Shown: piece after piece, positions 12,503 through 32,023 of the stretch
Layout: each line of letters opens with the position of its first letter
Numbering within the stretch: the stretch's first letter is position 1
Assembly (NCBI GenBank): GCA_001447805.1
Contig: CP013099.1
Coordinates: 2,489,181-2,553,180 of the forward strand
DNA: 64,000 nucleotides
DNA from: Candidatus Tenderia electrophaga
GTDB taxonomy: Bacteria > Pseudomonadota > Gammaproteobacteria > Tenderiales > Tenderiaceae
Reading direction: 5' to 3'
Notes under the pieces: generated by a model
Seen by the model: only the letters and a program-made list of their open reading frames with translations
What the model was told of the DNA's origin: nothing
Database searches by the model: none
Made by a program: the position numbers and the translations under genes

Positions 12503-14211
<1,709 letters not shown>

Positions 14212-14649: not shown

Positions 14650-14682
14650 GGCAAACTCCTTAGAAAAACCGTTGATGGGGGA

Positions 14683-14714: not shown

Positions 14715-14772
14715 GCGGCATTTCGTTTTTTCCTTCCCGCCGCCACCTCCGCAAAATTCCGGGCAAACGGGC

Positions 14773-14803: not shown

Positions 14804-14832
14804 TTCCCGCAATGAAAGCATGGGAGCACGAA

Positions 14833-15669: not shown

Positions 15670-15698
15670 CCTATGATTTTATTTTAGGAGCACACACC

Positions 15699-15995
15699 AT
15701 GAAGCATCTCGTTCAACTTATTGCCGCCACCGCCCTGCTCTGGGCGGGCCTCGCACTCGCCGCCGGCACCCAATACGACTTGCGCGTGGACGGCCTCGCC
15801 TGCCCCTTCTGCGCCTACGGCATCGAGAAGAAATTCCTCAAGACCGAAGGCGTCGAATCGGTGGACATCGACCTCAAAAACGGCCTGGTGATCGTGAAAA
15901 CCGCCGGAGGCAAGACCTTTACCGAGAATGAATTGAAGACCATCATCAACGACGCCGGCTTCACGATGAAGAGCATGACAGAGAAACCCTTATGA
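15699..15995 (+). CDS. Exported heavy-metal-associated (HMA) domain protein
   Basis: A 98-residue MerP-like protein: a signal peptide (about residues 1-21, ending ALAAGT) then one HMA domain with the motif LACPFCAYGIEKKF (CxxC) and a typical VESVDIDLKNGLVIV second strand. It likely binds a soft metal ion in the periplasm. TAGGAG precedes the ATG. Its stop overlaps the next gene by four bases. It differs from the merP at 14211 in motif (CPFC against CNMC), so it is probably not a duplicate for the same MerT. Confidence 0.8.
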   Translation: MKHLVQLIAATALLWAGLALAAGTQYDLRVDGLACPFCAYGIEKKFLKTEGVESVDIDLKNGLVIVKTAGGKTFTENELKTIINDAGFTMKSMTEKPL

Positions 15996-16969: not shown

Positions 16970-17225
16970 CATCGAAATCTTCACCGCGCCCAACTGCAAT
17001 AGATGCGGCCGCGCCGTGAGCCTGGTGCAGTCTCTGGCGCAAGAGCCCGGCAATGACTGGATAGCGTGGCGCCGGGTGGACGTGGTCGCCGAACTGGATT
17101 ACGCCGTGGCCATGGGCGTGCGCGCCACGCCCGCCATCGCCATTGACGGCAAGCTGATGTTTACTGCGCGGCCTACACACGACAAACTGTATCTAACATT
17201 GCAACAACACTTGAGTGAATCATGA
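16953..17225 (+). CDS. Small thioredoxin-like protein with CxxC
   Basis: A 90-residue thioredoxin/glutaredoxin-fold protein starting inside the end of the NHL gene (17-base overlap). The first strand runs into a redox or metal-binding motif, TAPNCNRCGRAV (CxxC), and a cis-Pro loop follows (VRATPAIAIDGKL). No signal peptide is seen, so it is cytosolic. It could reduce or relay metal-bound thiols for the regulator encoded next, with which it overlaps by four bases. Confidence 0.75.
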   Translation: MSKTVNIEIFTAPNCNRCGRAVSLVQSLAQEPGNDWIAWRRVDVVAELDYAVAMGVRATPAIAIDGKLMFTARPTHDKLYLTLQQHLSES

Positions 17226-17617
17226 CCCAACGCATCAGCGACATCACCCGGCAGCTCGGCCTTTCCGCCGACACCCTGCGCTATTACGAAAAAATCGGCC
17301 TATTGCCCAAGGTCAAGCGCACAGCCTCGGGTATCCGTGCCTACAACGACAAGGACATCTCCCGGCTCAAGTTCATCCAGCGCGCGCAGAGGATGAACTT
17401 CTCCCTGGCCGAGATCAAAGACCTATTGCAGATGCGCGAAGATCCACAACACGCGCGCACCGAAGTGCGTGAGCTTACCCACCGCAAGTTGGCAGACATC
17501 GAAAACCACCTGCAAGACCTCACCACCCTGCGCAATGAACTTACCCTGCTGGTCAATCTCTGCGCCGCCAGTGACAACGGCTGCCCGATTATTGAAGGTA
17601 TTGAAGACAGTGAATGA
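17222..17617 (+). CDS. MerR-family metal-responsive regulator
   Basis: A 131-residue MerR-family protein: HTH (ISDITRQLGLSADTLRYYEKIGLLP), a long dimerisation helix, then a metal-loop-like end with two cysteines (NLCAASDNGCPIIEGIE). The CPII ending is shared with CueR, CadR and PbrR-type sensors, whereas the third MerR cysteine (position 80 in the mer copy) is missing. It therefore probably senses another soft metal, or Hg with other geometry. It is last in the operon and likely autoregulated through the dyad at 14776-14796. Confidence 0.85.
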   Translation: MTQRISDITRQLGLSADTLRYYEKIGLLPKVKRTASGIRAYNDKDISRLKFIQRAQRMNFSLAEIKDLLQMREDPQHARTEVRELTHRKLADIENHLQDLTTLRNELTLLVNLCAASDNGCPIIEGIEDSE

Positions 17618-17629: not shown

Positions 17630-18289
17630 TTATCTCGCGGTCTCCACCGGCAAGCCTGCCTGTTTCCACTCGGGATAGCCATCCTGCAAACGCCTGACCC
17701 GGAAGCCTTTCCCGCGTAACAATTTCACGGCCTCGAAAGCGAGTACACAGTAGGGGCCACGGCAGTAAGCGACAATCTCACACTGCGGATCGAACTCGCT
17801 GAGATGTTTTTTCAATTCTTTCAAGGGAACATTGACCGCACCGGGCAAGTGGCCGGCGGCGTATTCGGCTGGAGGACGAACGTCCAATACGGTGACTGAA
17901 CCCTCTTTTGCCCGTTGCATCAATTCATCACGGGGTATCGGTTCCATGCTGTCTTTGCTGGTGAGATAGGTGCCGACCAACTGATCCACCTCGGCCAGAT
18001 GCCGTTCGGCCACGTTTCTCAAGCTGCCGACCAGTTCGTTCACATCCTCGCCATTTAGACGGTAGAAGACACGCTGACCCTCTTTGCGCGTCGTCACCAT
18101 CCCGGCATGGCGCAACTGCTGCAGGTGATGGGAGGTATTGGCCACACTCAGCCCCATCACCTTGGCGAGATCCTCCACCGAATATTCGCACTGGGCCAGA
18201 AACTCCAGCATCTCCAGCCGGTTGCCACTGCTCATCGCTTTGGCAACCTGGGCGAACTGCCCGAACAGGGCTTTTTTGAACGCACTCAT
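17630..18289 (-). CDS. ArsR-type repressor fused to a rhodanese domain
   Basis: A 219-residue regulator. Residues 1-95 form an ArsR winged helix (VEDLAKVMGLSVANTSHHLQQLRHAGMV, then REGQRVFYRL-like wing) with one Cys at about residue 34. Residues 115-215 form a rhodanese with the loop YCRGPYC. This architecture points to sensing of reactive sulfur (persulfide) rather than a metal ion. The ATG at 18289 is chosen; 18304 and 18346 are in-frame alternatives. It is divergent from the 18409 operon, and the shared 120-base gap holds two identical-type operators. Confidence 0.88.
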   Translation of the reverse strand: MSAFKKALFGQFAQVAKAMSSGNRLEMLEFLAQCEYSVEDLAKVMGLSVANTSHHLQQLRHAGMVTTRKEGQRVFYRLNGEDVNELVGSLRNVAERHLAEVDQLVGTYLTSKDSMEPIPRDELMQRAKEGSVTVLDVRPPAEYAAGHLPGAVNVPLKELKKHLSEFDPQCEIVAYCRGPYCVLAFEAVKLLRGKGFRVRRLQDGYPEWKQAGLPVETAR

Positions 18290-18322
18290 ACTTCTACCGT
18301 CCATTAAACGTACATCAATAAT

Positions 18323-18342
18323 ATTCAAACCATTGCTTGAAT
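18323..18342. promoter_or_regulatory. Operator 1, ATTCAA-N8-TTGAAT
   Basis: Inverted repeat ATTCAA (18323-18328) and TTGAAT (18337-18342) separated by eight bases. Its right arm can serve as the -35 (TTGAAT) of a + strand promoter with TACAGT at 18360-18365 (17-base spacer) reading into the 18409 operon. It is a likely ArsR-rhodanese binding site. Confidence 0.7.
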
Positions 18343-18368
18343 ACAAGGATAGGGTACGCTACAGTATT

Positions 18369-18388
18369 ATTCAAGTAATTATTTGAAT
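18369..18388. promoter_or_regulatory. Operator 2, ATTCAA-N8-TTGAAT
   Basis: A second copy, ATTCAA (18369-18374) and TTGAAT (18383-18388), centred 46 bases from the first. On the - strand its arm TTGAAT followed after 17 bases by TATCCT could be a promoter for the regulator. TTGTAT-17-TATTAT nearer the gene is another candidate. The site overlaps the expected start of the 18409 transcript, fitting repression. Confidence 0.7.
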
Positions 18389-18408
18389 ATTGTATGGAGC
18401 GGCATTAG

Positions 18409-19272
18409 ATGACTTTCCCGGAATTTATTACCCAGCATGAGGTGACCATTCGCCTGAGCTTCTTTTTCGGCGTCTTTGCCCTGATGGCGCTGTGGGAGAT
18501 CGTTGCGCCACGCCGGGTGTTGACCGTCTCCAAGGCGGTGCGTTGGATCAACAACCTGGGGCTGGTCTTCTTCAACAGCATCGTCCTGCGCCTGATCTTC
18601 CCTGCCGCCGCGGTGGGCATGGCCGTCTTTACCGCTGAAAACGGCTGGGGCCTGCTCAACCATTTCCAGATCTCCTTCCCGCTGGCCGTGATGATCTCGG
18701 TGGTGGCCATGGACTTCGTCATCTATTTGCAACACGTGCTGGTGCACGCTGTACCTACCCTGTGGCGGCTGCACCGGGTACACCATGCCGACCTGGATTA
18801 CGACGTCACCACCGGGGCGCGCTTCCATCCCATCGAGATCATCCTATCCATGCTCATCAAATTCGCCACCATCGTGGTGCTTGGCCCGCCGATAGCCGCA
18901 GTGGTGATCTTCGAGGTGGTGCTGAACGCCATGGCCATGTTCAATCACGGTAACGTGCGCCTGCCGCTGGCGCTGGACCGGGTATTGCGGCTCATCGTCG
19001 TCACCCCGGACATGCACCGCGTACATCACTCGGTGGAAGACAACGAAGCCAACAGCAACTTCGGTTTCAATCTTTCCATTTGGGACCGAATCTTCGGGAC
19101 CTATATCGATCAGCCCCGCGACGGCCATGTAGGAATGACCATCGGTATCCATCAATACCGCGCCGCTAAACAGGTGAGCTGGCTGCCAGGCATGCTGGCC
19201 CTGCCCTTCATCGGCAAGATCTCAGGTTATGCCATCAATCGCCGCGAGTGGAGCAAGCCCGATGAACAATAA
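18409..19272 (+). CDS. Fatty acid hydroxylase/sterol desaturase family protein
   Basis: A 287-residue integral membrane di-iron enzyme. Four or five hydrophobic spans surround the histidine clusters LQHVLVH (about residue 108), RLHRVHH (about 120) and MHRVHHSVED with NSNFGFN (about 200-220), as in the fatty acid hydroxylase superfamily. The substrate is probably a membrane lipid and cannot be named. GGAGCGG precedes the ATG. It is first in the rhodanese-regulated operon and overlaps the next gene by 11 bases. Single desaturase genes of this family often neighbour ArsR-rhodanese genes. Confidence 0.82.
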   Translation: MTFPEFITQHEVTIRLSFFFGVFALMALWEIVAPRRVLTVSKAVRWINNLGLVFFNSIVLRLIFPAAAVGMAVFTAENGWGLLNHFQISFPLAVMISVVAMDFVIYLQHVLVHAVPTLWRLHRVHHADLDYDVTTGARFHPIEIILSMLIKFATIVVLGPPIAAVVIFEVVLNAMAMFNHGNVRLPLALDRVLRLIVVTPDMHRVHHSVEDNEANSNFGFNLSIWDRIFGTYIDQPRDGHVGMTIGIHQYRAAKQVSWLPGMLALPFIGKISGYAINRREWSKPDEQ

Positions 19273-20227
19273 GATTGCGCGCATCCTCCTGCTTGCGCTC
19301 GTCATCGCGGGGATCACTCTTGCCGTGATCTACCGCGAGTCCTTCGACACCATGGCACTGGAAGCCTGGGTGAAGGATGCCGGCGCCGCCGGCCCAATCC
19401 TGTTCATGCTTATATACGCCCTGGGTACGGTGTTCTTCCTGCCCGGTTCGGTGCTCACCCTCGCTGGTGGCGCGCTGTTCGGGCCGGTATTGGGCACCTT
19501 CTACAATCTCACCGGTGCCACTATCGGCGCCACGCTCGCCTTTCTGGTGGCGCGTTACTTGGCATCGAACTGGGTGGAACACAAAGCCGGCGGTAGGCTG
19601 AAACAACTCAAGGAAGGCGTCGAGGGCGAAGGTTGGCGTTTTGTGGCCTTCGTGCGCCTGGTGCCGTTGTTCCCCTTCAATCTGCTCAATTACGCCCTGG
19701 GCCTGACGCGCATCAAGCTGCCCCACTACCTCATTGCCAGCTACCTGTGCATGTTGCCCGGCGCCATGGCCTACACGTATCTGGGCTATGCCGGGCGCGA
19801 GGCCGTGGCCGGTGGCAGCGGCGTGATCCAGAAGGGCCTGCTGGCCCTCGCCCTGCTTGCGCTGGTTGCTTTTCTGCCGCGCCTCATCGGCCGTCTGCGG
19901 CAAAAACCGATGTTGAGCATCCCGGAACTCAAACAACGTCTGGATGCGGCTGAGGACCTCCTGGTGCTCGATGTGCGCAGTGCGGAAGACTTTGCAGGCG
20001 AACAGGGTCATATCGCCAGGGCCACCAACATCCCCCTGGAAGCGTTGCCGGATCGACTCGCTGAGCTGGGTGATTACGAAGAACGGCCCATCGTCCTCGT
20101 CTGCCGCACCGACCGCCGTTCCAGCCAGGCGGCGCAACTGCTGGCACGACAGGGTTTCGCCGATGTGCATGTCGCCAGGGGCGGCATGACAACTTGGCTC
20201 AGCAATGGTTTTCCTATCGAACGATAA
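19262..20227 (+). CDS. TVP38/TMEM64 (DedA-like) membrane protein fused to rhodanese
   Basis: A 321-residue two-part protein. Residues 1-215 are a TVP38/TMEM64 (VTT) membrane domain: LPGSVLTLAGGALFGPVLGT and FVRLVPLFPFNLLNYALG are the characteristic re-entrant motifs. Residues about 225-320 are a rhodanese domain with active-site loop LVCRTDRRSSQA, so the catalytic Cys is present. DedA/VTT proteins move lipids or ions across the bilayer, and the fused cytosolic rhodanese suggests a coupling with sulfane sulfur. The start overlaps the desaturase stop. Confidence 0.85.
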   Translation: MNNKIARILLLALVIAGITLAVIYRESFDTMALEAWVKDAGAAGPILFMLIYALGTVFFLPGSVLTLAGGALFGPVLGTFYNLTGATIGATLAFLVARYLASNWVEHKAGGRLKQLKEGVEGEGWRFVAFVRLVPLFPFNLLNYALGLTRIKLPHYLIASYLCMLPGAMAYTYLGYAGREAVAGGSGVIQKGLLALALLALVAFLPRLIGRLRQKPMLSIPELKQRLDAAEDLLVLDVRSAEDFAGEQGHIARATNIPLEALPDRLAELGDYEERPIVLVCRTDRRSSQAAQLLARQGFADVHVARGGMTTWLSNGFPIER

Positions 20228-20239
20228 AGGAGGCCAGCC

Positions 20240-20593
20240 ATGAAGATACTCATCATCCTCAACGACGCGCCGTATGGCAGCGAGCGCAGTTACAACGCCT
20301 TGCGCCTGGCCAAGAGCCTGACCAAGCGCGATCCAGCCGAACTGACCCTGTTCCTGATGGCCGATGCCGTCACCTGCGCCAGGCAAGGACAAAAGCCACC
20401 CTCCGGTTATTACAACATCGAACTGATGCTCAAGGCGGTACTCCGCCACGAGAACAGCCGTGCCTTGCTGTGCGGCACCTGCATGGACGCGCGTGGCCTG
20501 ACGGACGAGGAACTCATCGATGGCGCGCAGCGCAGCGACATGGAGGCGCTATCCACCGCCACCTGCGACGCCGACAAGGTGCTGGTGTTTTAA
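20240..20593 (+). CDS. DsrE/DsrF-like sulfur-relay protein
   Basis: A 117-residue protein of the DsrE/YchN fold: MKILIILNDAPYGSERSYNALRLA at the N-terminus and the Cys motif ALLCGTCMDARGL (about residues 77-87). DsrE-like proteins carry persulfide sulfur on a conserved cysteine. It is cytosolic, with no signal peptide. AAAGGAGG in front of the ATG is the strongest ribosome site of the operon. It fits between a rhodanese fusion and a sulfide:quinone oxidoreductase-like enzyme as a sulfur carrier. Confidence 0.82.
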   Translation: MKILIILNDAPYGSERSYNALRLAKSLTKRDPAELTLFLMADAVTCARQGQKPPSGYYNIELMLKAVLRHENSRALLCGTCMDARGLTDEELIDGAQRSDMEALSTATCDADKVLVF

Positions 20594-20620
20594 CGGACTG
20601 ATGATAAAGGAGACACGGAT

Positions 20621-20799
20621 ATGTTTCACGACATGGGTGACTGGGGTTGGGGCATGGGCTTCGGCTGGATCTTTATGATTCTATTCTGGGCACTGTGGAC
20701 TTCCCCCGATTCAGTAGACGGTTATGATCTTCCACTATTTGCCTGCTCGAAATCAACCGGGAAGAGTATGAACAAAAGAAACACGATCTAAAACAGTGA
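20621..20799 (+). pseudogene. Broken SHOCT-domain membrane protein gene
   Basis: The ATG at 20621 (after GGAG) begins MFHDMGDWGWGMGFGWIFMI, the membrane start of small SHOCT proteins, but this frame runs out at 20791 without the SHOCT tail. The tail is present in another frame: LLEINREEYEQKKHDL ending at the stop at 20797-20799. A frameshift, probably with loss of the middle (the usual second half of the membrane helix), has split the gene. An intact relative is at 37110-37361. A 56-residue product of the first frame could still be made. Confidence 0.65.
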
Positions 20800-20850
20800 T
20801 GACTGAAATGATGTAAACACATTCGGCAGATTTTTTTCAGGAGAAGAAAA

Positions 20851-22011
20851 ATGAACGCCCAAGGTAAAACCATCCTTATTCTCGGCGGCGGCATCGGCGG
20901 TGTAGTCGCCGCTAGCCTGCTACGTAAAAAACTGCCGCGCGAACATCGCGTGGTGCTTATCGAGCGGGAGGCAAACCATGTGTTCGCACCTTCGTTTCTC
21001 TGGCTCATGACTGGTCTGCGCACGCCGGAGAAGATCAGCCGTCCCCTGGCCAAATTGGACAAGCTCGGCATAGAACGCATTCAGGGCGAGATCGAAAACA
21101 TCGATCCTGCGAAAAAAACGGTGACGGTGGGTGGGCAGGAGTTCAAGTGCGATTACCTGGTGCTTGCCCTGGGCGCCGAGCTGGCGCCGGACACCATTCC
21201 CGGTCTGGCCGAGGCGGGTCACAACCTCTACTCACTGAAGGGTGCGGAAGCACTGCGTGAAGCACGTCTCCAATTGCGTGAAGGTCGCTTGGTGGTACTG
21301 GTGAGCGGCGTGCCGTTCAAGTGTCCGGCGGCACCCTACGAGGCCGCCATGCTACTGGAGTACGATTGCCGCAAGCGCAAGGTTCGTGAGCAGTTACGGA
21401 TCGATCTATTTACACCAGAGCCGGGGCCGATGGGTGTCGCCGGCCCGGAGGTCTCTACCCAGGTACGACAAATGGTCGAATCCAAGGGCATCGATTATCA
21501 CCCGGAGCATACCGTCACTCAGGTGAATCCAGAGGCAAAACAGATTCAGTTTACCAACGGCGCAATAGCGGATTTTGATCTATTAGCCTACGTGCCGCCC
21601 CATCGCGCATCGCAGGTTGTTCGTGACGCCGGATTGACCGGCGAATCAGGCTGGGTACCGGTTGATCGCTCGACCTTGGCGACGAAATTCCCCGGCATCT
21701 ACGCCATCGGTGATGTCACCGGCATCATGCTGTCGATGGGCAAACCGCTGCCCAAGGCCGGCGTCTTCGCCCATGGTGAGGCCGAGGTAGTGGCCAATAA
21801 CCTGATCCACGAAATCACCGGTAAAGGAAACCCTAAAGTCTTCAATGGTCATGGTGAGTGTTTTTTGGAGAGCGGCGATGGTAAAGCCGGTTTTGGCAGT
21901 GGTAATTTCTTCGCCGAGCCCGCCCCGCAAGTGAAGCTGCGTCAACCCAGCCGCACCCTGCACCTGGGCAAGGTGGCCTTCGAGAAGTACTGGTTGTTTG
22001 AATGGTTTTAA
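20851..22011 (+). CDS. Sulfide:quinone oxidoreductase-like flavoprotein
   Basis: A 386-residue FAD protein of the SQR/FCSD family: N-terminal GGGIGGVVAASLLRKKLP, an NAD/FAD-like DYLVLALGAEL segment, the Cys motif SGVPFKCPAAPYEAAMLLEYDC (about residue 155), the second FAD motif YAIGDVTGI and a C-terminal amphipathic end (FEKYWLFEWF) for membrane contact. SQR oxidises sulfide to sulfane sulfur and reduces quinone. The canonical third Cys is not clearly placed, so an SQR-related enzyme with a different electron partner is possible. AGGAGAAG precedes the ATG. Confidence 0.8.
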   Translation: MNAQGKTILILGGGIGGVVAASLLRKKLPREHRVVLIEREANHVFAPSFLWLMTGLRTPEKISRPLAKLDKLGIERIQGEIENIDPAKKTVTVGGQEFKCDYLVLALGAELAPDTIPGLAEAGHNLYSLKGAEALREARLQLREGRLVVLVSGVPFKCPAAPYEAAMLLEYDCRKRKVREQLRIDLFTPEPGPMGVAGPEVSTQVRQMVESKGIDYHPEHTVTQVNPEAKQIQFTNGAIADFDLLAYVPPHRASQVVRDAGLTGESGWVPVDRSTLATKFPGIYAIGDVTGIMLSMGKPLPKAGVFAHGEAEVVANNLIHEITGKGNPKVFNGHGECFLESGDGKAGFGSGNFFAEPAPQVKLRQPSRTLHLGKVAFEKYWLFEWF

Positions 22012-22021
22012 GGAAATGATC

Positions 22022-24325
22022 ATGAACCTACGCCGCCTGACTGAATTCTCCCTCGACCGCCCCAGGACGGTGATCGGCCTGACCCTGCTGATCACCGTCT
22101 TGTTCCTGTTGCAGTTTCCCAAGATCACCATCGACACCGATCCGGAGAACATGCTGGAAGCCAACCAGCCCGACCGTGTCCTTTACGACCGTGTCAAAAA
22201 GGAGTTTGGCATCCACGATCTGATCGTGGTGGGCATCGTCGACGACCAGGGTATTTTTCGCACCGAGGCCCTGGAGAGTGTCAAGCGCACCATCAATGCC
22301 ATCGTCAAGATCAAGGGCGTGATCATCGAAGATGTGGTGAGTCTTACCACTACGGACAACGTGAAATCGGCGGGCGGATTGCTGGACATCCATCCGGTAA
22401 TGCGGGAATCACCACGCTCCGAAGAGGCCATTGCCCAAATGCGCCGCGACATCGCCGACAACCCCTTCTTGCACGAAAAGATTGCGTCAGGTGACGGCAG
22501 CGCGCTGGCCCTCTACGTACCGATCCGGGAAAAGGCCTTGAGCTTCCAGATTGCAGGTGAAATCGAAGCGGTGCTGCAACAAGAGCTGCTGCCAGGGCAA
22601 CACTACCATCTGGCCGGACTGCCGGTGGCCGAGGACACCTTCGGCCATGAGATGTTCGTACAAATGGCGGTGGTGGCACCGCTGGCCTTCATGGTGATCC
22701 TGTTGCTGGTGTTCTTGCTATTCCGTCAGGGGCCGTTCCTGCTGCCCATCGGCCTCGACGCCATGTTCGCCGTCATTTGGACTATGGGTTTGTTGATCGG
22801 CAGCGGCTATACAGTACACATCATGAGCTCCATGATTCCGGTCTTTCTCATGCCTATCGCCATCCTCGACGATGTGCATGTGCTGAGCGAGTTCTTCGAC
22901 CGCTATCGGCAAGTGGGCGATAAACGCCGCGCCCTGCTGGAGGCGATGGAACCACTCTACCGTCCCATGCTGCTGACCTCGCTCACCTCGGCGGTGGGCT
23001 TCGCCTCCCTGGCCCTGGCTGCCATCCCCCCGGTGCAGGTCTTTGGCCTGTTCGTCGCTTTTGGCATCATGGCTGCCTGGCTGTTTTCCATGACCATGGT
23101 GCCTGCCATCATCAGCCTGATGAGTGACGAACGTTTAAAGAAGGCCTTGCCGCGTGAACAGGAAGAGCACTCCCGGCTCGACCGCTTGCTGGCACCGATT
23201 CGGCATATAGCCTTTTCCCATCACCGCACTGTGCTCATCATTAGCCTAGTGGTGATCGCCGTGGGTATTGCTGGAGTGACGCGCATCCAGGTCAATGACA
23301 ACCCGGTCAACTGGTTCAAGGAAGGCCATCCCATGCGGGTGGCCGATACGGTGATGAACCGTCTCTTTGGCGGTACCTACATGGCCTATGTTGTGGTGGA
23401 AAGTGATGAACCCGAGGCCATCAAACAGCCGCAGACCGTGGCCTGGATTGACCGTTTGCAGGCCCATCTCGAAGACGATCCCCTGGTGGGTAAGACCTCC
23501 TCGGTGGCTGACATCGTCAAGCGCATCAACTTCGTTCTCCACGATAACGCACCTGAGTGGAACCGCATCCCGGACACCGCCGATGCGGTTGGCCAGTTCC
23601 TGTTTCTGTTCCAGTCCTCCGGTGACCCCAACGACCTGGACAACTTCGTCGACCGCGAGGCGCGCCAGGCCACCGTCTGGGTGCAGATGAAGGGCGGCGA
23701 CAACCAGCAGATGGAGGTCATCGAGAACCATCTGCAAACCTTTACAGCCAGTGACCCACCTCCGACAGGCATCAACGTCAAATGGTCGGGGCTGACCTAT
23801 ATCAACAAGGTCTGGCAGGACCTGATGGTAAGCGGCATGCTCAAAGCCATCCTCGGCAGCTTCGTGGTGGTGTTCGTAGTCATGGTGATCGCCTTCCGCT
23901 CACTGGGTCTGGGATTGCTGGCCATGACGCCGCTGACGGTGGCAATCCTGCTCTCTTATGGCCTGATCGGCTGGTTGGGCAAGGACTACGACATGCCCAT
24001 CGCCGTCTGTTCATCGCTGGCCCTGGGGATGGGCATCGACTTCGCCATCCACTACTTGATGCGCTTTCGCGCCCACTATCGGCAAAGCGGCGACCTGGAA
24101 GAGACACACCGTTACATGTGCGGTGAACCGGGGCGCGCTATTCTGCGCAATGCGATTGTGATCTCCCTCGGTTTCCTGCCGTTGGTGGCTTCCACCCTGT
24201 TGCCCTATGTGACCGTGGGAAGCTTCTTCGCCCTGCTGATGCTGTTCAGCACCCTCGCCACCCTGTTTTTATTGCCGGCGGCTTTACACTTATTGGGTCC
24301 ACGTCTGCTCACCGGAGGTAAGTAA
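22022..24325 (+). CDS. MMPL-type RND transporter
   Basis: A 767-residue RND-superfamily permease of the MMPL/HpnN-like branch with two repeats of one plus five membrane spans (first around residues 20-38 and 225-370, second around 410-430 and 610-760). It has two large periplasmic loops (DTDPENMLEANQPDRVLYDRV, and VNDNPVNWFKEGHP). These transporters usually move lipids or hydrophobic molecules to the outer membrane. The ATG at 22022, behind AAGGAAATG, is chosen over 21998. Its stop overlaps the LolA-like gene (TAATG), so the two are coupled. Confidence 0.88.
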   Translation: MNLRRLTEFSLDRPRTVIGLTLLITVLFLLQFPKITIDTDPENMLEANQPDRVLYDRVKKEFGIHDLIVVGIVDDQGIFRTEALESVKRTINAIVKIKGVIIEDVVSLTTTDNVKSAGGLLDIHPVMRESPRSEEAIAQMRRDIADNPFLHEKIASGDGSALALYVPIREKALSFQIAGEIEAVLQQELLPGQHYHLAGLPVAEDTFGHEMFVQMAVVAPLAFMVILLLVFLLFRQGPFLLPIGLDAMFAVIWTMGLLIGSGYTVHIMSSMIPVFLMPIAILDDVHVLSEFFDRYRQVGDKRRALLEAMEPLYRPMLLTSLTSAVGFASLALAAIPPVQVFGLFVAFGIMAAWLFSMTMVPAIISLMSDERLKKALPREQEEHSRLDRLLAPIRHIAFSHHRTVLIISLVVIAVGIAGVTRIQVNDNPVNWFKEGHPMRVADTVMNRLFGGTYMAYVVVESDEPEAIKQPQTVAWIDRLQAHLEDDPLVGKTSSVADIVKRINFVLHDNAPEWNRIPDTADAVGQFLFLFQSSGDPNDLDNFVDREARQATVWVQMKGGDNQQMEVIENHLQTFTASDPPPTGINVKWSGLTYINKVWQDLMVSGMLKAILGSFVVVFVVMVIAFRSLGLGLLAMTPLTVAILLSYGLIGWLGKDYDMPIAVCSSLALGMGIDFAIHYLMRFRAHYRQSGDLEETHRYMCGEPGRAILRNAIVISLGFLPLVASTLLPYVTVGSFFALLMLFSTLATLFLLPAALHLLGPRLLTGGK

Positions 24326-25113
24326 TGAAACATTTGTTCCTGAACGTCATCCTGCTGCTGTTTTCCAGCTCCGCTTTTTCCCAAACCATGAGTGCTGAGC
24401 AGATCATCGAACAGTCACAACGCGCCTTCTACTACGCCGCCGGGGATATGCAGGCAAAAGTCACCATGCAACTCATCGACGCTGACGGCGGCACGCGCAA
24501 GCGGGTGATGACCATGCTCAGGCGCGACACCGTAGAAGGCGGCGAGCAGAAGTATTTCATCTATTTCCACGAACCGGGGGACGTGCGGCGCATGACCTTC
24601 ATGGTGTGGAAGGACCCGGTGAAGGAGGACCAGCGCTGGATCTTCATCCCCGCCGTCGACCTGGTGCGGCGCATCGCCGCCGATGACAAGCGCTCCAGTT
24701 TCGTCGGTTCGGACTTCACCTACGAGGATGTCTCGGGCCGCGATGTGGCCGACGACAATCACACCCTGTTGCGCGAAGAGACCCTGGACAACAGGGAGGC
24801 CTATGTTATCGAGAGCATTCCCAACGAGGTGGTGGAATACACCAGGCGCATCTCATGGATCGACAAGCAGACCCTGCTGCCGCTGAAAGAGAGCTATTAC
24901 GATGCCCAGGATGAGCTCTACCGGGTCTTCACCGCCGACAAGATCGAAGCAATTAACGGCTGGCCGACAGTGACACAACGCAGCATGAAAAACCTCAAGA
25001 CCGGCCACCGCACCGAGGTGATGTTCGACAGGATCTCCTACGATCTGGGGCTTGATGATAAGGACTTCAGTGAACGACGCATGCGCCGCCCGCCACGGGC
25101 GTGGATAGAGTAG
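24325..25113 (+). CDS. LolA-like outer-membrane lipoprotein-sorting protein
   Basis: A 262-residue periplasmic protein with a signal peptide (cleavage near SAFS-QTMS). The fold pattern is LolA-like: amphipathic strands with MTMLRRDTVEGGEQKYFIYFHEPGDVRRMTFMVW and a WIFIPAVDLVRRI stretch. These proteins shield acyl chains between membranes. Its position between an MMPL transporter and an outer-membrane barrel suggests a lipid export path. It is coupled to the transporter by a one-base overlap. Confidence 0.82.
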   Translation: MKHLFLNVILLLFSSSAFSQTMSAEQIIEQSQRAFYYAAGDMQAKVTMQLIDADGGTRKRVMTMLRRDTVEGGEQKYFIYFHEPGDVRRMTFMVWKDPVKEDQRWIFIPAVDLVRRIAADDKRSSFVGSDFTYEDVSGRDVADDNHTLLREETLDNREAYVIESIPNEVVEYTRRISWIDKQTLLPLKESYYDAQDELYRVFTADKIEAINGWPTVTQRSMKNLKTGHRTEVMFDRISYDLGLDDKDFSERRMRRPPRAWIE

Positions 25114-25117
25114 GACC

Positions 25118-26383
25118 ATGATGGCAGTGTGGGACCACTCAATTTTTGCTCTAGCCATGGTTCTGCTGCTGACAGCATCGCCAGGCCAGGCCGCCGATGT
25201 AGAGACCCACGGCTTCCTGCTGCTCAATTACAGTGGCCGCATGACGGATGACCGACCGGCACAGAGCGACAGCGATTTTTTGCTCGGCGAGGAGCGCTTA
25301 CGCCTGGATGTCTCGGTTTGGGCGGATGAGATAGAGGCATCCGCCCGCTTCAAGGGCGACCTGTTTCACGATTCTGTGGACGATGAAACTGAACTGGATA
25401 TGCGCGAGGCCTATGTCGATTATGCAACGGATAAAGTCGACCTGCGCCTGGGCAGGCAGATCGCCACCTGGGGCGTGGGCGACCTGCTGTTCATCAACGA
25501 TGTCTTTCCCAAGAACTGGGTGTCGTTCTTCTCCGGCCGGCCACTGGAATATCTGAAAATCGGGGTGGATGGCGCGCGGCTCCGTTTTAGCGGTGAAATG
25601 ATCAATGCGGATGTTATACTCATCCCGTTCTTCACTCCCGATACCCTTCCCACCCCGGCACGCTTTTTTCTCTACGACCCACTAGCCCCGGTTACCACTC
25701 GCAGCGAAACCAAGCCTGCCTCGACCTACGATAATAGTGAGTTGGCCCTGCGGCTCTACCGCCGCGCCCGTGACTTCGACGTGGCAGCCTATCTCTACAA
25801 AGGTTTCTGGCGCTCGCCGGGCATGCGGCCTGATGACTTCACCGCACCGACACAGATCGAGCTGTTTTATCCGGAACTGTACGTCTACGGCGCCAGCGCC
25901 CAGGGCAACGCCTTCGGCGGGGTGCTGAGCCTGGAGGTGGGCTATTACGACTCACGAGATGACCGCGACGGCAACGATCCTACTATCGCCAACTCCCAAT
26001 CGCGTTTTCTGATCGGCTATCAGCGCCAGCTCAAACAGGACCTCACTCTCGGCCTGCAGTACTACACGGAGATCATGCGGGACTATGATCAATACAAACA
26101 AACGTTACCAGCTGGCTTTGCCGTGCAGCGCCGTTCCCGCGACACTGTCACCCTGCGATTAGAACAGCTGCTGCGGCATCAGACCCTGCGGCTGAGTCTG
26201 TTCACCTTCTACAGTCCGGCAGATGATGATTATCTGATTCAGCCGAAAATGAGCTATCAATTTTCTGACGAGTTGTCTGCAACACTGGGAGCAAATTTCT
26301 TTGGCGGAAACAAAAAGACCACTTTCCTCGGTCAGTTCGATAAGAACGACAATATCTACCTCTCAGTCCGCTTCGATTTCTGA
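25118..26383 (+). CDS. Outer-membrane beta-barrel protein
   Basis: A 421-residue exported protein: signal peptide (about residues 1-25, ending GQAAD), many alternating strands (LRLGRQIATWGVGDLLFINDV, LSATLGANFFGG) and a terminal Phe in YLSVRFDF, the outer-membrane insertion signal. It resembles the DUF1302-like or alginate-export-like barrels that sit beside MMPL and LolA-like genes. It could be the outer-membrane acceptor for the proposed lipid path. Four bases separate it from the LolA-like gene. Confidence 0.75.
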   Translation: MMAVWDHSIFALAMVLLLTASPGQAADVETHGFLLLNYSGRMTDDRPAQSDSDFLLGEERLRLDVSVWADEIEASARFKGDLFHDSVDDETELDMREAYVDYATDKVDLRLGRQIATWGVGDLLFINDVFPKNWVSFFSGRPLEYLKIGVDGARLRFSGEMINADVILIPFFTPDTLPTPARFFLYDPLAPVTTRSETKPASTYDNSELALRLYRRARDFDVAAYLYKGFWRSPGMRPDDFTAPTQIELFYPELYVYGASAQGNAFGGVLSLEVGYYDSRDDRDGNDPTIANSQSRFLIGYQRQLKQDLTLGLQYYTEIMRDYDQYKQTLPAGFAVQRRSRDTVTLRLEQLLRHQTLRLSLFTFYSPADDDYLIQPKMSYQFSDELSATLGANFFGGNKKTTFLGQFDKNDNIYLSVRFDF

Positions 26384-26394
26384 CAGGAGGAGTG

Positions 26395-27015
26395 ATGGCA
26401 AACTGTTGTGAAGACAAAGCCTGCGAACTCGACGCCTTGGGCAAGCGCCAGCGGCATGTGCTGCAGATTGTGCTGGTGATTAATGCGCTCATGTTTTTTG
26501 TTGAGTCAGGTGCCGGTCTCATTGCCCGTTCGACTGCTCTGCTGGCCGATTCGCTGGATATGCTCGGCGATGCTCTGGTCTATGGATTCAGCCTATGGGT
26601 GATCACTCGGGACCAGCGCTGGCGAGCGATCGCCGCCTTGCTGAAAGGCTTGATTATGGCGGCCTTTGGAATCGTAGTACTCCTGGAGGTACTTGATAAG
26701 CTGTTCGAGCCGGTGCTCCCAATAGCGCCGGTCATCGGCACAGTGGGATTCATAGCGCTCGCCGCTAATAGCGTCTGTTTGGTTCTGCTACTGCGCCACC
26801 GTCATGACGACATCAACATGCGTTCAACCTGGTTATGCTCGCGCAATGACATCATCGCTAACGTTTCAGTATTGGCGGCGGCGGGCGGCGTGGCGGTGTC
26901 AGGGTCGATGTGGCCGGATGTGATTGTCGGTCTGGGTATCGCGCTGCTGTTTCTGCACTCTGCCATCCATGTGCTGAAACAGTCGGTCATAGAACTACAG
27001 GTTCGGCATGATTAG
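26395..27015 (+). CDS. CDF-like cation transporter variant
   Basis: A 206-residue membrane protein with five or six spans. The N-terminus is Cys-rich (MANCCEDKACELD). The second span holds LLADSLDMLGDALVYG, matching the Asp site of cation diffusion facilitators. In the fifth span the usual His-xxx-Asp is replaced by CSRND (Cys instead of His). The short length means the C-terminal cytosolic CDF domain is missing. The Cys substitution could favour a thiophilic metal. AGGAGG precedes the ATG, which is one codon after a possible GTG start at 26392. Confidence 0.75.
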   Translation: MANCCEDKACELDALGKRQRHVLQIVLVINALMFFVESGAGLIARSTALLADSLDMLGDALVYGFSLWVITRDQRWRAIAALLKGLIMAAFGIVVLLEVLDKLFEPVLPIAPVIGTVGFIALAANSVCLVLLLRHRHDDINMRSTWLCSRNDIIANVSVLAAAGGVAVSGSMWPDVIVGLGIALLFLHSAIHVLKQSVIELQVRHD

Positions 27016-28240
27016 GCCAAGAGCGGGGATGAAGAAGCGGACCGTCATACTTATTCTCCTCTTGACGATCTTCATCCTATTTCTCGGTTGGCGCTTCGTG
27101 CGCCCCATGAACATCTTCGTAGTATCACCTTCATTTGAACGGCCCATTGATACCAGCAACGCACCAACTATGTTTCAAACGCTGAGCGCGCAAGAATGCG
27201 CCGCCTGTCACCGTGAATTCTATGACGAATGGGCCACCACGATTCACAGCCAGGCCTGGACCGACCCTTACTTTCAGGTCGACTGGCGTTTCGAGGACAA
27301 ACCGCAGGTCTGCAAGAACTGCCATATCCCGCTGGACCGTCAGCAGGAACACCAGGTGCTCGGTTTTCGTGACAGCGAAAAATGGGACCCGATACTGGCG
27401 CCCAATCCGGATTTCGATGCCGAACTTCAGCATGAGGGCGTGACATGCAATGTGTGCCACCTGCGCGACGGCAAGATTCTCGGCGTCTATGGTGATAGCA
27501 ACGCGCCGCATCCGGTGGAAAGGATCGACAACCCCAACCGGGTATGTGTGCGCTGCCATGTGGTGTCCGGCGAGCGCTGGGACACCTTCTTCAAGTTCCC
27601 GCCCTGTGGAACGGTGGCGGAAATCCAGACAAACCAGGGCAAGCAATGCGTTAAAGACGTGGATAATCTGACGACGGACACCATTGCCGCATTGGGCTGT
27701 GTGGACTGCCATATGCCTTTGCTGCAACGTCCGCTGGTTACCGGCGGCAAGGTACGCGCAACACGGCGGCATTTATGGCGCGGCGGCCATGAGCCGGCGA
27801 TGGTGAAACAGGCCTTGACCATCTCCTTTGAGGAAACCGCCGGCGTTGCCGCCGGCGAACACCGCTTTGAGTTGGCCATCACCAACAGCGGCGCCGCGCA
27901 TTATGTGCCCACCGGCACGCCCGACCGCCATTTGACAGTGCAGTTACGCCTGCTCGATGCAAAGGGCAAGGTGCTGAAAGAGGAAGATCACCTGCTCAAG
28001 CGCACTGTCATGTGGCGGCCATTCATCATCGATCTTTGGGACACCCGCCTGCCTCACGGCGAGCAACGAAGTTATCACCTGGCGTTTCCAGACCAGCAAC
28101 AGGCCGTCGCCGTCGAGGCGGTGGTGCGCTATCACCTGTTGGACGAGAAGCGCCGCCAACGCATCGGCTATGAGAACAAGGAGCCCATCGCCTATGACGT
28201 ATTCAGGCAACGCCTGCCCGTGACCGAAGTCAATCTATGA
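27008..28240 (+). CDS. Membrane-anchored pentaheme cytochrome c
   Basis: A 410-residue protein with an N-terminal membrane anchor (about residues 12-30) and five CxxCH motifs: CAACH, CKNCH, CNVCH, CVRCH and CVDCH, all within the first about 240 residues, in an arrangement like cytochrome c554/multiheme oxidoreductase families. The C-terminal 150 residues form a beta-rich domain without hemes. It probably transfers electrons in the periplasm to or from a sulfur or nitrogen compound. The start overlaps the CDF gene by eight bases; ATG 27029 (MKKRTVIL) is an equally likely start. Confidence 0.85.
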   Translation: MIRPRAGMKKRTVILILLLTIFILFLGWRFVRPMNIFVVSPSFERPIDTSNAPTMFQTLSAQECAACHREFYDEWATTIHSQAWTDPYFQVDWRFEDKPQVCKNCHIPLDRQQEHQVLGFRDSEKWDPILAPNPDFDAELQHEGVTCNVCHLRDGKILGVYGDSNAPHPVERIDNPNRVCVRCHVVSGERWDTFFKFPPCGTVAEIQTNQGKQCVKDVDNLTTDTIAALGCVDCHMPLLQRPLVTGGKVRATRRHLWRGGHEPAMVKQALTISFEETAGVAAGEHRFELAITNSGAAHYVPTGTPDRHLTVQLRLLDAKGKVLKEEDHLLKRTVMWRPFIIDLWDTRLPHGEQRSYHLAFPDQQQAVAVEAVVRYHLLDEKRRQRIGYENKEPIAYDVFRQRLPVTEVNL

Positions 28241-28257
28241 TCAACAAAGGGGGAAAA

Positions 28258-29403
28258 ATGAAACTGCCCATCTACCTCGACTACAACGCCACCACCCCGG
28301 TTGATCCCCAGGTGGCGGATTCTATCGAACCTTATCTGCACCAGCACTTCGGTAACCCTTCGTCCACCCATGTCTACGGCCGCCGAGCCCATGAGGCGGT
28401 GGAGCAAGCCCGGCAACGGGTGGCGGAGTTGATCGGCGCGCAAACCACCGAGATCGTCTTCACCGGCTGCGCCACCGAGGCCAACAACCTGGCGATCCGT
28501 GGGGTGGCCCGCGCCTTGCGTCACAAGGGTCGGCACCTGATCACCAGTGCGGTGGAGCATCCCTCGGTGGCCCAGCCCTTCAGCTACCTGCAACAAGAGG
28601 GCTGGAAGGTGACCGTAATTCCAGTCGACGGTCACGGCCGGGTGAATCCCGCTGACGTGGCCAATGCCTTGCGGGATGACACGGTACTGGTCTCCATCAT
28701 GCACGCCAACAACGAAGTGGGCACCATCCAACCCATCGAGGAGATCGCCGCCATCACCCGCCCGCGTGGCATCGTGCTGCATACGGATGCCGCCCAGTCC
28801 ATGGGCAAGATCCCTGTCTTCGTTAATGATTTGGGTGTTGATCTACTGACTATCGCGGGACACAAATTCTATGCCACCAAAGGTGTCGGTACCCTCTATG
28901 TGCGTAAGGGCACGCCGATCCAGCCTGTCCTGGTTGGCGCGGGCCATGAACATGGCCTGCGACCGGGCACCGAGAACGTACCCGCCATTGTCGGCCTGGG
29001 TGAAGCGGCCCGTCTGGCGACCGAGCGTGGAGCGAATGAGATGCTGCATCTGCGTGAAATACGCGATACGCTACACAGACAGCTTGCAGAGGCCGTTCCC
29101 GACCTCCTGTTGAACGGCCATCCTGAGCAGCGCCTACCCAACACCCTCAACCTCTCTTTTCCCAATGTGGACGGCCGGGAACTGCTGGCCGATGCCGCGA
29201 ACGACGTGGCCGCCTCGGTGGGCTCAGCCTGTCACGAGGAGGGCGAGGCAGTAAGCGGCGTACTAGGGGCGATGGGGATAACACCCGAGCGAGCGCGCGG
29301 CGCCGTGCGGCTCTCTCTGGGAATGCAAACCACTGAAGAAGAAATCGGCCAAGCCGCCAAGGCGCTAATCACTGTGTGGCAGGATAGCGCGAAGCTCCGG
29401 TGA
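28258..29403 (+). CDS. Cysteine desulfurase (NifS/IscS-like)
   Basis: A 381-residue PLP enzyme that releases sulfur from cysteine as a persulfide. It shows YLDYNATTPVDPQV at the start, the His stacking motif in TSAVEHPSV, the PLP lysine in TIAGHKFYATKGVG and the mobile catalytic Cys in SVGSACHEEGEAVSGVLGAMG. The loop differs from housekeeping IscS (SACSSG), which points to a specialised desulfurase. GGGGG lies upstream of the ATG at 28258; 28237 is an in-frame alternative. Its stop overlaps the methyltransferase start (GTGA). Confidence 0.9.
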   Translation: MKLPIYLDYNATTPVDPQVADSIEPYLHQHFGNPSSTHVYGRRAHEAVEQARQRVAELIGAQTTEIVFTGCATEANNLAIRGVARALRHKGRHLITSAVEHPSVAQPFSYLQQEGWKVTVIPVDGHGRVNPADVANALRDDTVLVSIMHANNEVGTIQPIEEIAAITRPRGIVLHTDAAQSMGKIPVFVNDLGVDLLTIAGHKFYATKGVGTLYVRKGTPIQPVLVGAGHEHGLRPGTENVPAIVGLGEAARLATERGANEMLHLREIRDTLHRQLAEAVPDLLLNGHPEQRLPNTLNLSFPNVDGRELLADAANDVAASVGSACHEEGEAVSGVLGAMGITPERARGAVRLSLGMQTTEEEIGQAAKALITVWQDSAKLR

Positions 29404-30059
29404 CTCAACTCATGAGGAGGTTCATTGACCCGGCAGCCTACGAGGCCTGGTATCGTACACCGCGAGGTGCCTGGATCGGCCGGGCCGAGTTCACGCTGTT
29501 AATGAGACTGCTGCGCCCGACATCCGGCGACACGCTGCTGGATGTGGGTTGTGGCACGGGGTATTTTTCGCGGCGATTCGCCGACTCAGGTCTGCATGTC
29601 ACCGGCATCGATCCAGACGCAGCCATGCTGGCATTCGCCAACTCGCGCAGTGCAAACGTTCAGTATATGCAAGCATCAGCGTTGCGCCTCCCTTTCAGGG
29701 ATCATGCCTTCGATTACGCAAGTGCGATCACCAGTTTGTGTTTTATCGAACCACCGACGCTGGCCATTGCGGAGATGCAGCGCGTCTCCCGCCACGCAGT
29801 CGTGCTGGGATTACTCAATCGTCACAGTCTGCTGTATTACGCCAAACATGATCAGGGTGGGTACAAGGGCGCGCGCTGGGACGGCACCAGAGACGTGCGA
29901 CAATGGCTTGAGCCTTTCGCCCCAACCGTGGAAACTGAAATCCGCAGCGCCATTTTCCTGCCCGGCGGCAATCTGTTCTCTCGCACAATAGAACGGTGCT
30001 TGCCGACCCGTCTCCCTTACGGAGGTTTTCTTGCAGTGAAAATCCAGCGCCGGTTATGA
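29400..30059 (+). CDS. Class I SAM-dependent methyltransferase
   Basis: A 219-residue Rossmann-fold methyltransferase starting at GTG that overlaps the desulfurase stop. SAM motif I is LLDVGCGTGYFSRRFADSGL, followed by the acidic strand end VTGIDPD and an ASITSLCFIE-like post-motif. The substrate is unknown. Being coupled to a cysteine desulfurase in a sulfide-linked set raises the idea of thiol or persulfide methylation (methanethiol-type detoxification), an inference only. It is the last gene of the operon. Confidence 0.8.
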   Translation: MTQLMRRFIDPAAYEAWYRTPRGAWIGRAEFTLLMRLLRPTSGDTLLDVGCGTGYFSRRFADSGLHVTGIDPDAAMLAFANSRSANVQYMQASALRLPFRDHAFDYASAITSLCFIEPPTLAIAEMQRVSRHAVVLGLLNRHSLLYYAKHDQGGYKGARWDGTRDVRQWLEPFAPTVETEIRSAIFLPGGNLFSRTIERCLPTRLPYGGFLAVKIQRRL

Positions 30060-30164: not shown

Positions 30165-30593
30165 ATGATTAGAAATCCGTTATTCCGCCGATTCGTCACT
30201 GCAACTGTGATGGTGCTGGGGCTGTTTACGCAGTTCCAGATGGCGTTCGCCTGTGAGTTGATGGATGGCAAGGTGCAGTATGTCTGCTGTTGCGACGAGC
30301 CGGGATCCATGGGTTGTGCCATGGGCGGTGGTTGTCATGATTCGCAGGATACGCAGACGCAGAACTGCTGTGCAGTCTCATACGAGCCGATGCCCAATGC
30401 TACGGCGATCGCCCCAGAATCCCATTCACTGCAGGTATTGTTGCTCGACGCCCCCCAGCCACCGCCCATACCTGTTTCGTTCGATATTCCGGAGTTTTCT
30501 CCGGCCAATCACGCCCTTCGTTTTACCCACGCCTTAGCTCCTCATGTTGCAGGCACAGACACGTACCTGCTGACCAACCGCTTCCGCATCTGA
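30165..30593 (+). CDS. Exported Cys-rich protein, unknown function
   Basis: A 142-residue protein with a signal peptide (about residues 1-29, MAFA before C30). The mature part begins with eight cysteines within 40 residues (C30, C41-43, C51, C57, C68, C69), with Met and His between them (MGCAMGGGCHDS), consistent with metal binding. The rest is Pro-rich (QPPPIPVSFDIPEF). It is the first gene of the copper/silver region and could bind Cu(I) in the periplasm. No named family is recognised. Confidence 0.65.
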   Translation: MIRNPLFRRFVTATVMVLGLFTQFQMAFACELMDGKVQYVCCCDEPGSMGCAMGGGCHDSQDTQTQNCCAVSYEPMPNATAIAPESHSLQVLLLDAPQPPPIPVSFDIPEFSPANHALRFTHALAPHVAGTDTYLLTNRFRI

Positions 30594-30624: not shown

Positions 30625-30712
30625 GTCGCGTTTGGGTTCGCACCCTGGCGCTTGCCGTGCTGCGCGCGTCTCGTGGCCCGGACTTGTAAGCAACTCACAA
30701 CGAAGGTGTTTT

Positions 30713-32023
30713 ATGTACAACAAAATATTTCTCTGGTGGCTCCGGCCCGGGATCGTCATGGCGTGCCTGGCCTTCGGCTGGCATACCGTCATGGCCGCGC
30801 CTGTGGACGATGGTTTTAACCGTGAACCGCAATTGACATCGGCACGGCTGGTAGACGCCGTGCTAAACCGTAACCCGGATATTCCCGCCATGCAGGCGGC
30901 TTGGGAGGCGGCCCAAGCTCGCATTGAACAGGCCGGGGCGCTCAATGACCCCATGATGTCCTATGCCTTCGCCCCGCAAACCGCGGGGGCGAGCGGCATG
31001 GACTTCGGCCAAAAGCTCTCGATTTCGCAACACCTGCCCTGGCCTGGTAAACGCGAGCTGCGCGGCGATGCCGCCCGCTTTGAGTCCGAAGCCGCACATG
31101 AAGGGATCGAACAGACCCGGCTGAAACTCACTGAAGCGGCCAAATCGGCCTTTGCCGACTGGTATTTCGTGCACGCGGCCATCCGTGTTAACGCGATCAA
31201 CAAGTCGCTGTTGCAAGAATTCCGCAACAACGCGGAGATCAAATATTCGGCGGGCCGGGCCTCGAAACAGGATGCCCTGCGTGCCGAGGTGGAAGTCGCG
31301 CTGCTGGAACACCGTGACATCGTACTGGAGCGCCGCCGCCGTGAGGTGCTGGCGGTATTGAATACCCTGTTGCAGCGCCAGCCCGATGCGCCGCTACCTC
31401 CCCCGTCGAATCTGCCGGATACCGGCGTCCTGCCGGCGGTGGCTGAGCTGCGCACGGCGGTGCTGGAGGTTCACCCCGAACTTCGCGCCTTGGCTGCGCG
31501 CCTTCAGGCAAGCCGGCAACAGGTGGCGCTCGCCGAACGTGAGTTCTACCCCGATTTCCGTCTGGCCGCCGAATATAACAGCCTGTGGATGCGCGATGAG
31601 CAGCGTTTCACCGTCGGTGTCGGTATCAACATTCCCCTCCCGGGTAAACACCGCGCGGCGAAGGACGAGGCGCAGGCCATACTCATGGGTTTGGATCTCA
31701 CGCGGCAAGCCAGGATGTCCGAGATCATGGGCGAGGTGCAACAAGCCTATGACCGGGTGCGCGAGAGCGAGCATGTATTGTCCCTGTACCAAAACCGGCT
31801 GCTGCCCCTCGCCGAGGAGAACCTGGCGGCCGCCCGCTCGGATTACGAGGCCGGCCGCGGTAATTTTCTCGACATGATCGGCGCGGAAAAAAACCTGATG
31901 CAGGCCCAACTCCAACTTGAGCAGGCACGAACGGATCACCACCGGCGGCTGGCGGCGTTGGAACGCACCGTGGGCGGGCCGCAGGCCCTGCAAGGCATTC
32001 AATCCTGGGGTATCAAACAATGA
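30713..32023 (+). CDS. cusC: CusC/CzcC-type outer-membrane efflux protein
   Basis: A 436-residue TolC-family protein, the outer-membrane channel of a heavy-metal RND system. After a signal peptide (about residues 1-36) it has two long helical repeats (LVDAVLNRNPDIPAMQAAWEAA..., VAELRTAVLEVHPELRALAARL...) and the conserved LSISQHLPWPGKRELRGD. The ATG at 30713 has GAAGGTG upstream; upstream in-frame sequence to 30623 is not signal-like. It overlaps the adaptor gene by four bases. CusC against CzcC cannot be fixed from this gene alone; the neighbours favour Cus. Confidence 0.85.
   Translation: MYNKIFLWWLRPGIVMACLAFGWHTVMAAPVDDGFNREPQLTSARLVDAVLNRNPDIPAMQAAWEAAQARIEQAGALNDPMMSYAFAPQTAGASGMDFGQKLSISQHLPWPGKRELRGDAARFESEAAHEGIEQTRLKLTEAAKSAFADWYFVHAAIRVNAINKSLLQEFRNNAEIKYSAGRASKQDALRAEVEVALLEHRDIVLERRRREVLAVLNTLLQRQPDAPLPPPSNLPDTGVLPAVAELRTAVLEVHPELRALAARLQASRQQVALAEREFYPDFRLAAEYNSLWMRDEQRFTVGVGINIPLPGKHRAAKDEAQAILMGLDLTRQARMSEIMGEVQQAYDRVRESEHVLSLYQNRLLPLAEENLAAARSDYEAGRGNFLDMIGAEKNLMQAQLQLEQARTDHHRRLAALERTVGGPQALQGIQSWGIKQ

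Follow-up and report, generated by a model that had tools for sequence, protein, structure and literature searches.

Why an ArsR-family regulator fused to a rhodanese domain should face a run of genes that joins sulfur-relay proteins to a putative trans-envelope exporter is the question raised by a locus of Candidatus Tenderia electrophaga. It lies at 17630-30059 of the window, by which we mean the whole stretch of 64,000 nucleotides that was analyzed (contig CP013099.1, positions 2,489,181 to 2,553,180; the genome comprises 3.76 Mb in two contigs). The minus-strand ArsR-rhodanese gene is divergent from a plus-strand run of 11 intact open reading frames (ORFs) and a broken one; a previous sequence-only reading of this DNA had described a regulator facing twelve co-oriented genes, one of them broken, and all of these are present at agreeing positions. 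Three of them, here called the triad, encode an MMPL transporter, a LolA-like carrier and an outer-membrane barrel. ArsR-type sulfur-sensor regulators are linked to this triad in phylum after phylum, a link not seen at paralogous MMPL loci, and comparison across genomes gives good support to a recurrent, repressor/operator-controlled and sulfane-sulfur-linked unit that would export hydrophobic compounds. No description of such a link was found in the literature searched.

The recurrence was established by scanning contigs of genomes with an alignment of four MMPL proteins, which yielded 80 loci from many phyla; three more from relatives brought the survey to 83 loci, chosen by MMPL alone, and 40 loci around paralogous MMPL genes served as controls. 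The order MMPL-LolA-barrel is nearly always kept: LolA follows MMPL at 76 of 81 loci, and at 77 the barrel is the next gene. An ArsR gene lies within 3 kb of MMPL at 48/83 loci versus 0/40 controls (Fisher p 1.4e-11), and at the same distance the counts are 45/83 versus 0/40 for genes of YgaP-like transmembrane proteins (their identity confirmed by Pfam PF11127 for four examples), 14/83 versus 0/40 for DsrE, 16/83 versus 1/40 for rhodanese and 12/83 versus 1/40 for SQR. Within 5 kb, at least one of these five kinds of gene is found at 75 of the 83 triad loci and at two of the 40 controls. The survey also contains an internal control, in that ArsR occupies the first upstream kb at 33 of 79 loci and falls to zero in every 1-kb upstream bin past 4 kb. 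In a later sample of seven more triad loci from other genomes, six had ArsR, YgaP-like, SQR or rhodanese neighbors.

The regulators themselves vary among triad loci and include rhodanese fusions, SqrR/BigR-type proteins with an LC...YC dithiol pattern and ArsR proteins of other types; on a tree of 34 rows the regulator state changes seven times. Since the kinds of regulator differ, the linkage between ArsR and the triad has arisen, or been rewired, more than once. SQR stands directly upstream of MMPL at five Nitrospirota-type loci. A conserved run of ArsR, two DsrE, a protein of ~90 aa, SQR, MMPL, LolA and barrel genes was seen at four loci of this type (L050, L051, L052, L055), and at Zixibacteria/Krumholzibacteria-type loci (L059, L074-L078, L082, L086, L088) small genes for sigma-factor-like and zinc-finger anti-sigma-like proteins often precede the triad in place of ArsR.

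The regulator of the window (17630..18304, minus strand) scores above the cut-offs of Pfam HTH_5 and Rhodanese, as expected of a repressor-type protein, and has a palindromic operator candidate at its own promoter. Its likely start is the ATG at 18304 or 18289, the ORF being open up to a TTG at 18346. Two perfect copies of an operator-like palindrome, TATTCAA-N8-TTGAATA, consisting of a 7-bp inverted repeat around an 8-bp spacer, are located 46 bp apart at 18322..18343 and 18368..18389, in the divergent promoter between the ArsR-rhodanese and hydroxylase genes. No further site with up to three mismatches occurs in the window, and two matches at this tolerance arise in 13 of 100 shuffles; because chance produces such a pair not rarely, the case for an operator rests on conservation. 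When the best site within 240 bases around the ArsR-rhodanese start was sought, a site with 0-2 mismatches was present at 45 of 64 ArsR-rhodanese loci, whereas control windows taken from these loci had one in two cases out of about 1,215. In other phyla the counts at up to two mismatches were 6/8 loci and 1/148 control windows. In the whole genome of the window, the only perfect sites are the two at this operon. Two sites with one mismatch and three of those with two were inspected and proved to lie within or next to genes that have no relation to sulfur, so that a genome-wide ArsR-rhodanese regulon was rejected. The regulator thus has the look of a repressor that acts locally, on this operon alone, and the idea that the locus forms one regulated unit, already put forward from the sequence, is supported. 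A different exporter may occupy the same regulatory setting at a single locus (L203:9711-16526): the ArsR-rhodanese gene there has a perfect operator and is divergent from a set of TolC-MFP-RND type, a label given by visual inspection of sequence and size, after which comes a YgaP-like transmembrane gene.

What the repressor senses can be approached through its cysteines. Across 72 ArsR-rhodanese homologues, cysteine conservation is limited to two residues of the rhodanese loop CRGP[YH]C (71/72 and 70/72; CRGPYC in the window), and no cysteine of the ArsR domain is conserved. Both the SqrR/BigR dithiol and the classical ArsR/SmtB cysteine metal site are therefore absent, and sensing through the rhodanese loop would be the simplest reading. 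A persulfide sensor of the SqrR/BigR type was rejected for the window regulator, which lacks the cysteine pair of the ArsR domain (C41/C107 in SqrR) and scores 53.5 bits against NF040642, below the cut-off of 155. In SqrR, reaction with persulfide makes a sulfur bridge between two cysteines (PMC9995734), and the model of a bridged pair for the window regulator is carried over from there. The cysteine pattern of the loop fits sulfane sulfur, and a thiophilic metalloid could be accommodated as well; reactive sulfur may accordingly be proposed as the trigger of the operon.

The operon appears to be a mosaic of two parts with separate histories. Of 274 genomes surveyed, 76 were positive, and among 60 gammaproteobacterial ArsR-rhodanese loci taken from these, a hydroxylase and/or VTT-rhodanese gene was present at 41, a gene matching the profile of the SQR-type flavoprotein at 20, DsrE at 13 and a cytochrome at 11, and the LolA or barrel of the triad at none. 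The core, in which ArsR-rhodanese faces hydroxylase, VTT-rhodanese, DsrE, SQR and cytochrome genes, is common among Gammaproteobacteria in a form that lacks the pump, and by the same count the triad is a separable cassette. The SQR of the window and the genes flanking the triad are of gammaproteobacterial kinship. Indeed, the closest homologue of this SQR, at 71% identity, belongs to a triad-free gammaproteobacterial operon (L170), where the cytochrome gene directly follows SQR; SQR was accordingly dropped as a part of the transferred cassette. The MMPL, LolA and barrel of the window are closest (73, 67 and 64%) to those of Desulfobacterales and Glassbacteria loci that possess their own ArsR-rhodanese, the MMPL homologues of these two groups being 72-73% identical. 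Sedimenticola and one other gammaproteobacterial metagenome-assembled genome carry a triad at the same place of a homologous operon, belonging to a different triad lineage; a single clade of the window and Sedimenticola triads is rejected with an approximately unbiased p value (p-AU) of 1.4e-91. From these trees, the operon received the triad on two or more occasions, in the window and Sedimenticola lineages, and the use of one slot by two lineages argues for a functional reason. In a relative from the same genus, whose ArsR-rhodanese is 88-90% identical, the core is present and its SQR is truncated, and the short contig carries no triad. Sedimenticola selenatireducens DSM 17993 has two copies of the operon (L047, L048); an SQR-like gene, 29% identical, is present in one of them and missing from the other. 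Homologous loci that break at the SQR/MMPL boundary, which the sequence-only reading had named as a sign of two unrelated operons, thus gave a mixed answer: the gammaproteobacterial core usually lacks the triad, yet triads elsewhere have their own ArsR, SQR and DsrE neighbors, for which reason the two parts are not taken to be unrelated.

The three triad proteins point to transport across the envelope. MMPL, an RND transporter of the MMPL/HAE3 type (22022..24325, plus strand, as are all features below), matches PF03176 twice above cut-off (145.4 bits) and scores 198.6 bits against the HAE3 model TIGR00921, whose cut-off is 351.9; its solved relatives, Dispatched, MmpL, NPC1 and HpnN, are only distant. 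A hopanoid transporter of the HpnN type was rejected, as TIGR03480 gives 111.7 bits against a cut-off of 751.85. The LolA-like carrier (24325..25113) is assigned by both the sequence cut-off of PF17131 (204.8 bits) and its fold, modeled with a pLDDT of 92 and a TM-score of 0.82 to Porphyromonas LolA3 (9tp6), with DUF1329-family structures matching too. The barrel (25118..26383), recognized from its structure model (pLDDT 94.6), has an AlgE/porin-like fold with generic matches and no specific kin, and thus does not point to a substrate. The nearest characterized cassette is AmeABCD of Castellaniella defragrans, in which an HAE3-family RND protein, a LolA-superfamily periplasmic protein and a DUF1302 outer-membrane barrel raise monoterpene tolerance (PMC6394551). 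As this is an efflux system for hydrophobes, export of a hydrophobic compound is likely here, and by this analogy the triad probably carries an oily substance out of the inner membrane toward the outer one. A lipid, as the sequence-only reading had it, may be the substrate, as may zero-valent sulfur or an arsenical, none of which is singled out by the evidence.

Each of the known systems resembles the operon in part. The arrangement of RND, LolA-superfamily and barrel genes in one cassette is shared with AmeABCD, whereas the typed genes of the window operon include no counterpart of AmeC (COG4447), its second periplasmic protein; AmeA and AmeB are DUF1302 and DUF1329 proteins in a monoterpene island, and the part of the source at hand reports no ArsR or sulfur genes there. 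In the persulfide-responsive SqrR, BigR and YgaV regulons an ArsR-family repressor likewise adjoins SQR, rhodanese or sulfur dioxygenase genes, and the YgaP-like proteins at triad loci recall YgaV-YgaP (PMC9995734, PMC5823870, PMC9774250); unlike these, the window regulator would sense, if at all, by way of its fused rhodanese, and its regulon contains an RND-LolA-barrel exporter. HpnN and the sterol transporter BstABC are also MMPL-family RND systems, which move polycyclic lipids toward the outer membrane (PMC10942540), whereas the window MMPL belongs to another sequence cluster and has other partners. The zero-valent sulfur transporter YedE1E2 lies beside an ArsR/SmtB gene and moves sulfane sulfur, but it is an inner-membrane importer of an unrelated family (PMC10812762). 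Arsenosugar clusters (ArsS, ArsM, TIGR04282/TIGR04283) adjoin the same ArsR-rhodanese core in other Gammaproteobacteria and are not part of the window operon. At L155, L159, L161, L166, L179, L190, L191 and others, ArsR-rhodanese/hydroxylase/VTT-rhodanese operons run into or near genes for ArsS, TIGR04282/TIGR04283 proteins, an ArsM-like protein and a MerA/Lpd-like flavoprotein, and these loci apparently constitute a regulated arsenosugar unit.

We propose, at about even chances, a repressor-controlled stress operon of two modules with a hydrophobic product of sulfur stress as its substrate. Module 1 would be the gammaproteobacterial ArsR-rhodanese regulon (hydroxylase, VTT-rhodanese, DsrE, SQR, cytochrome, cysteine desulfurase and methyltransferase), and module 2 the mobile MMPL-LolA-barrel cassette, placed between SQR and the cytochrome. 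A dimer of ArsR-rhodanese on the two conserved operators would repress both directions until sulfane sulfur, as persulfide or polysulfide, loads the rhodanese loop, bridges its cysteine pair and releases the repressor. By family, SQR is expected to turn sulfide into sulfane sulfur, to be carried by DsrE and the rhodaneses. From their families and the precedent of AmeABCD, MMPL may lift the compound from the inner membrane, the LolA-like carrier may ferry it through the periplasm, and the barrel may pass it through or into the outer membrane. The compound could be a modified lipid or a species of zero-valent sulfur, which the evidence does not separate. Several points tell against this proposal: the sequence holds nothing that fixes the substrate of the triad, the ArsR domain of the window regulator lacks the SqrR/BigR cysteine pair, and ArsS-type arsenosugar genes near 14 of the 60 ArsR-rhodanese loci point module 1 to arsenic; moreover, the survey loci are related by descent, so that p values computed from them overstate independence, the controls all come from Gammaproteobacteria, and the search profiles were built from this same data set.

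Because of the arsenosugar genes, induction of the core operon by As(III) has to be taken seriously as an alternative. As(III) or a similar soft metal might be sensed through the CRGP[YH]C dithiol, with the operon handling arsenic and the triad either exporting an arsenical lipid or riding along. TIGR04282/TIGR04283-type glycosyltransferases near 12/60 and ArsM-like genes near 10/60 ArsR-rhodanese loci speak for such a response, as do the mer-, cue- and cus-type metal genes flanking the window operon, the CDF protein inside it, and an operon of Thioalkalivibrio jannaschii, perhaps a different one, that encodes a rhodanese-related protein together with a glycosyl transferase and is induced by As(III) (PMC6620896). 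We nevertheless consider it doubtful: the ArsR domain has no conserved cysteine, sulfur is indicated by the presence of SQR, DsrE, rhodanese and YgaP-like partners, and the ArsS cluster of the window genome sits elsewhere, with no operator site found there. Arsenosugar genes were also dismissed as the usual surroundings of the triad, ArsS or arsenosugar glycosyltransferases being present at 3/83 triad loci, all more than 5 kb distant, and the case for arsenic thus stops short of the triad.

The triad could instead be an ordinary exporter of lipid homeostasis, of the hopanoid or lipoprotein type, whose redox regulation is incidental. This would suit the matches of MMPL to HpnN-type and HAE3 models, the LolA-like fold, and the lipid-associated families of the hydroxylase and VTT domain, but it is unlikely in view of the low HpnN score, the triad-free occurrence of hydroxylase and VTT-rhodanese in Gammaproteobacteria, and their rarity at triad loci elsewhere, which mostly lack both (fatty-acid hydroxylase at 3/83 and VTT at 4/83 within 3 kb). 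Very unlikely, finally, is a chance joining of two functionally unrelated operons, with the triad riding on the ArsR-rhodanese promoter. The usual absence of the triad from the core, the different phylogenetic origins of the two and the triad-free contig of the same-genus relative would be explained by it, whereas the second triad lineage in the same slot of Sedimenticola, the triads elsewhere with their own ArsR-rhodanese and the same operator, and the strong neighbor enrichment over controls would not.

The presence of one pump type beside similar sulfur-linked regulators in many distant phyla suggests that reactive sulfur and envelope export are connected in a way that has been overlooked. 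With a concrete operator and a cassette testable in cultured bacteria (Sedimenticola, Ferrimonas, Nitrincola, Alteromonas), the exit of hydrophobic sulfur or sulfur-damaged lipids from the Gram-negative cell becomes a directly testable question. A bolder reading, which we regard as quite improbable, would make the MMPL-LolA-barrel(-YgaP-like) cassette a widespread, sulfane-sulfur-regulated means of driving persulfidated membrane compounds, or else zero-valent sulfur in hydrophobic form, out across the Gram-negative envelope; no transporter for such export was found in the literature searched.

The remaining genes of the operon largely conform to the sequence-only reading, whose sulfur-relay genes and cysteine desulfurase are borne out. 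The run opens with a membrane enzyme of the fatty-acid-hydroxylase/sterol-desaturase superfamily (18409..19272; PF04116, 103.5 bits), followed by a TVP38/DedA-like VTT membrane domain fused to rhodanese (19262..20227; PF09335 and PF00581), a DsrE/TusD-like sulfur carrier (20240..20593; PF02635), the remnant of a small gene, seen in the sequence as an interrupted short membrane-protein-like frame (20622..20800), and an SQR/FCSD-like flavoprotein (20851..22011). The best model for the latter is type III SQR, below cut-off (NF049943, selenoprotein subtype, 254 bits against 525); its Cys158 and Cys337 align with cysteines of Aquifex SQR, as expected of the two redox cysteines. Downstream of the triad come a CDF-type cation efflux protein with the membrane domain only (26392..27015; PF01545), which the reading had left unnamed, a membrane-anchored pentaheme cytochrome c (27008..28240; Cytochrome_C554, five CxxCH), a NifS/IscS-type cysteine desulfurase (28237..29403) and a class I SAM methyltransferase (29400..30059; Methyltransf_11). 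ArsM was rejected for this methyltransferase, no ArsM model being among its 25 best model matches. The triad, cytochrome and methyltransferase stood as named, but the label "lipid" for the hydroxylase is not established, because the curated cut-off for the ornithine lipid hydroxylase OlsE, an identity that was rejected, is missed (NF052566, 93.6 bits against 475). Homologues of the hydroxylase reach 81% identity, many of them adjoining ArsR-rhodanese, and a second copy, 62% identical, lies apart from the operon in the window genome (G000:C1:3136685-3137497).

Junctions are tight in most places, as had been noticed, with gaps of about -8, 12, 257, 13, -1, 4, 8, -8, 14 and -4 bases; the 257 bases separate DsrE from SQR and house the broken gene. 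Weak sequence scans found no plus-strand promoter-like site in this gap and no terminator-like site between operon genes. The operon is flanked at 13921-17617 and 30710-36626 by metal genes of MerT/MerP-like, HMA, MerR/CueR-like and CusCBA-like types. A cysteine-rich, secreted-looking protein of 142 aa without an NCBIfam match is encoded at 30165-30593, between the operon and the CusCBA-like genes, and an NHL-repeat protein at 15992-16969 also flanks the operon.

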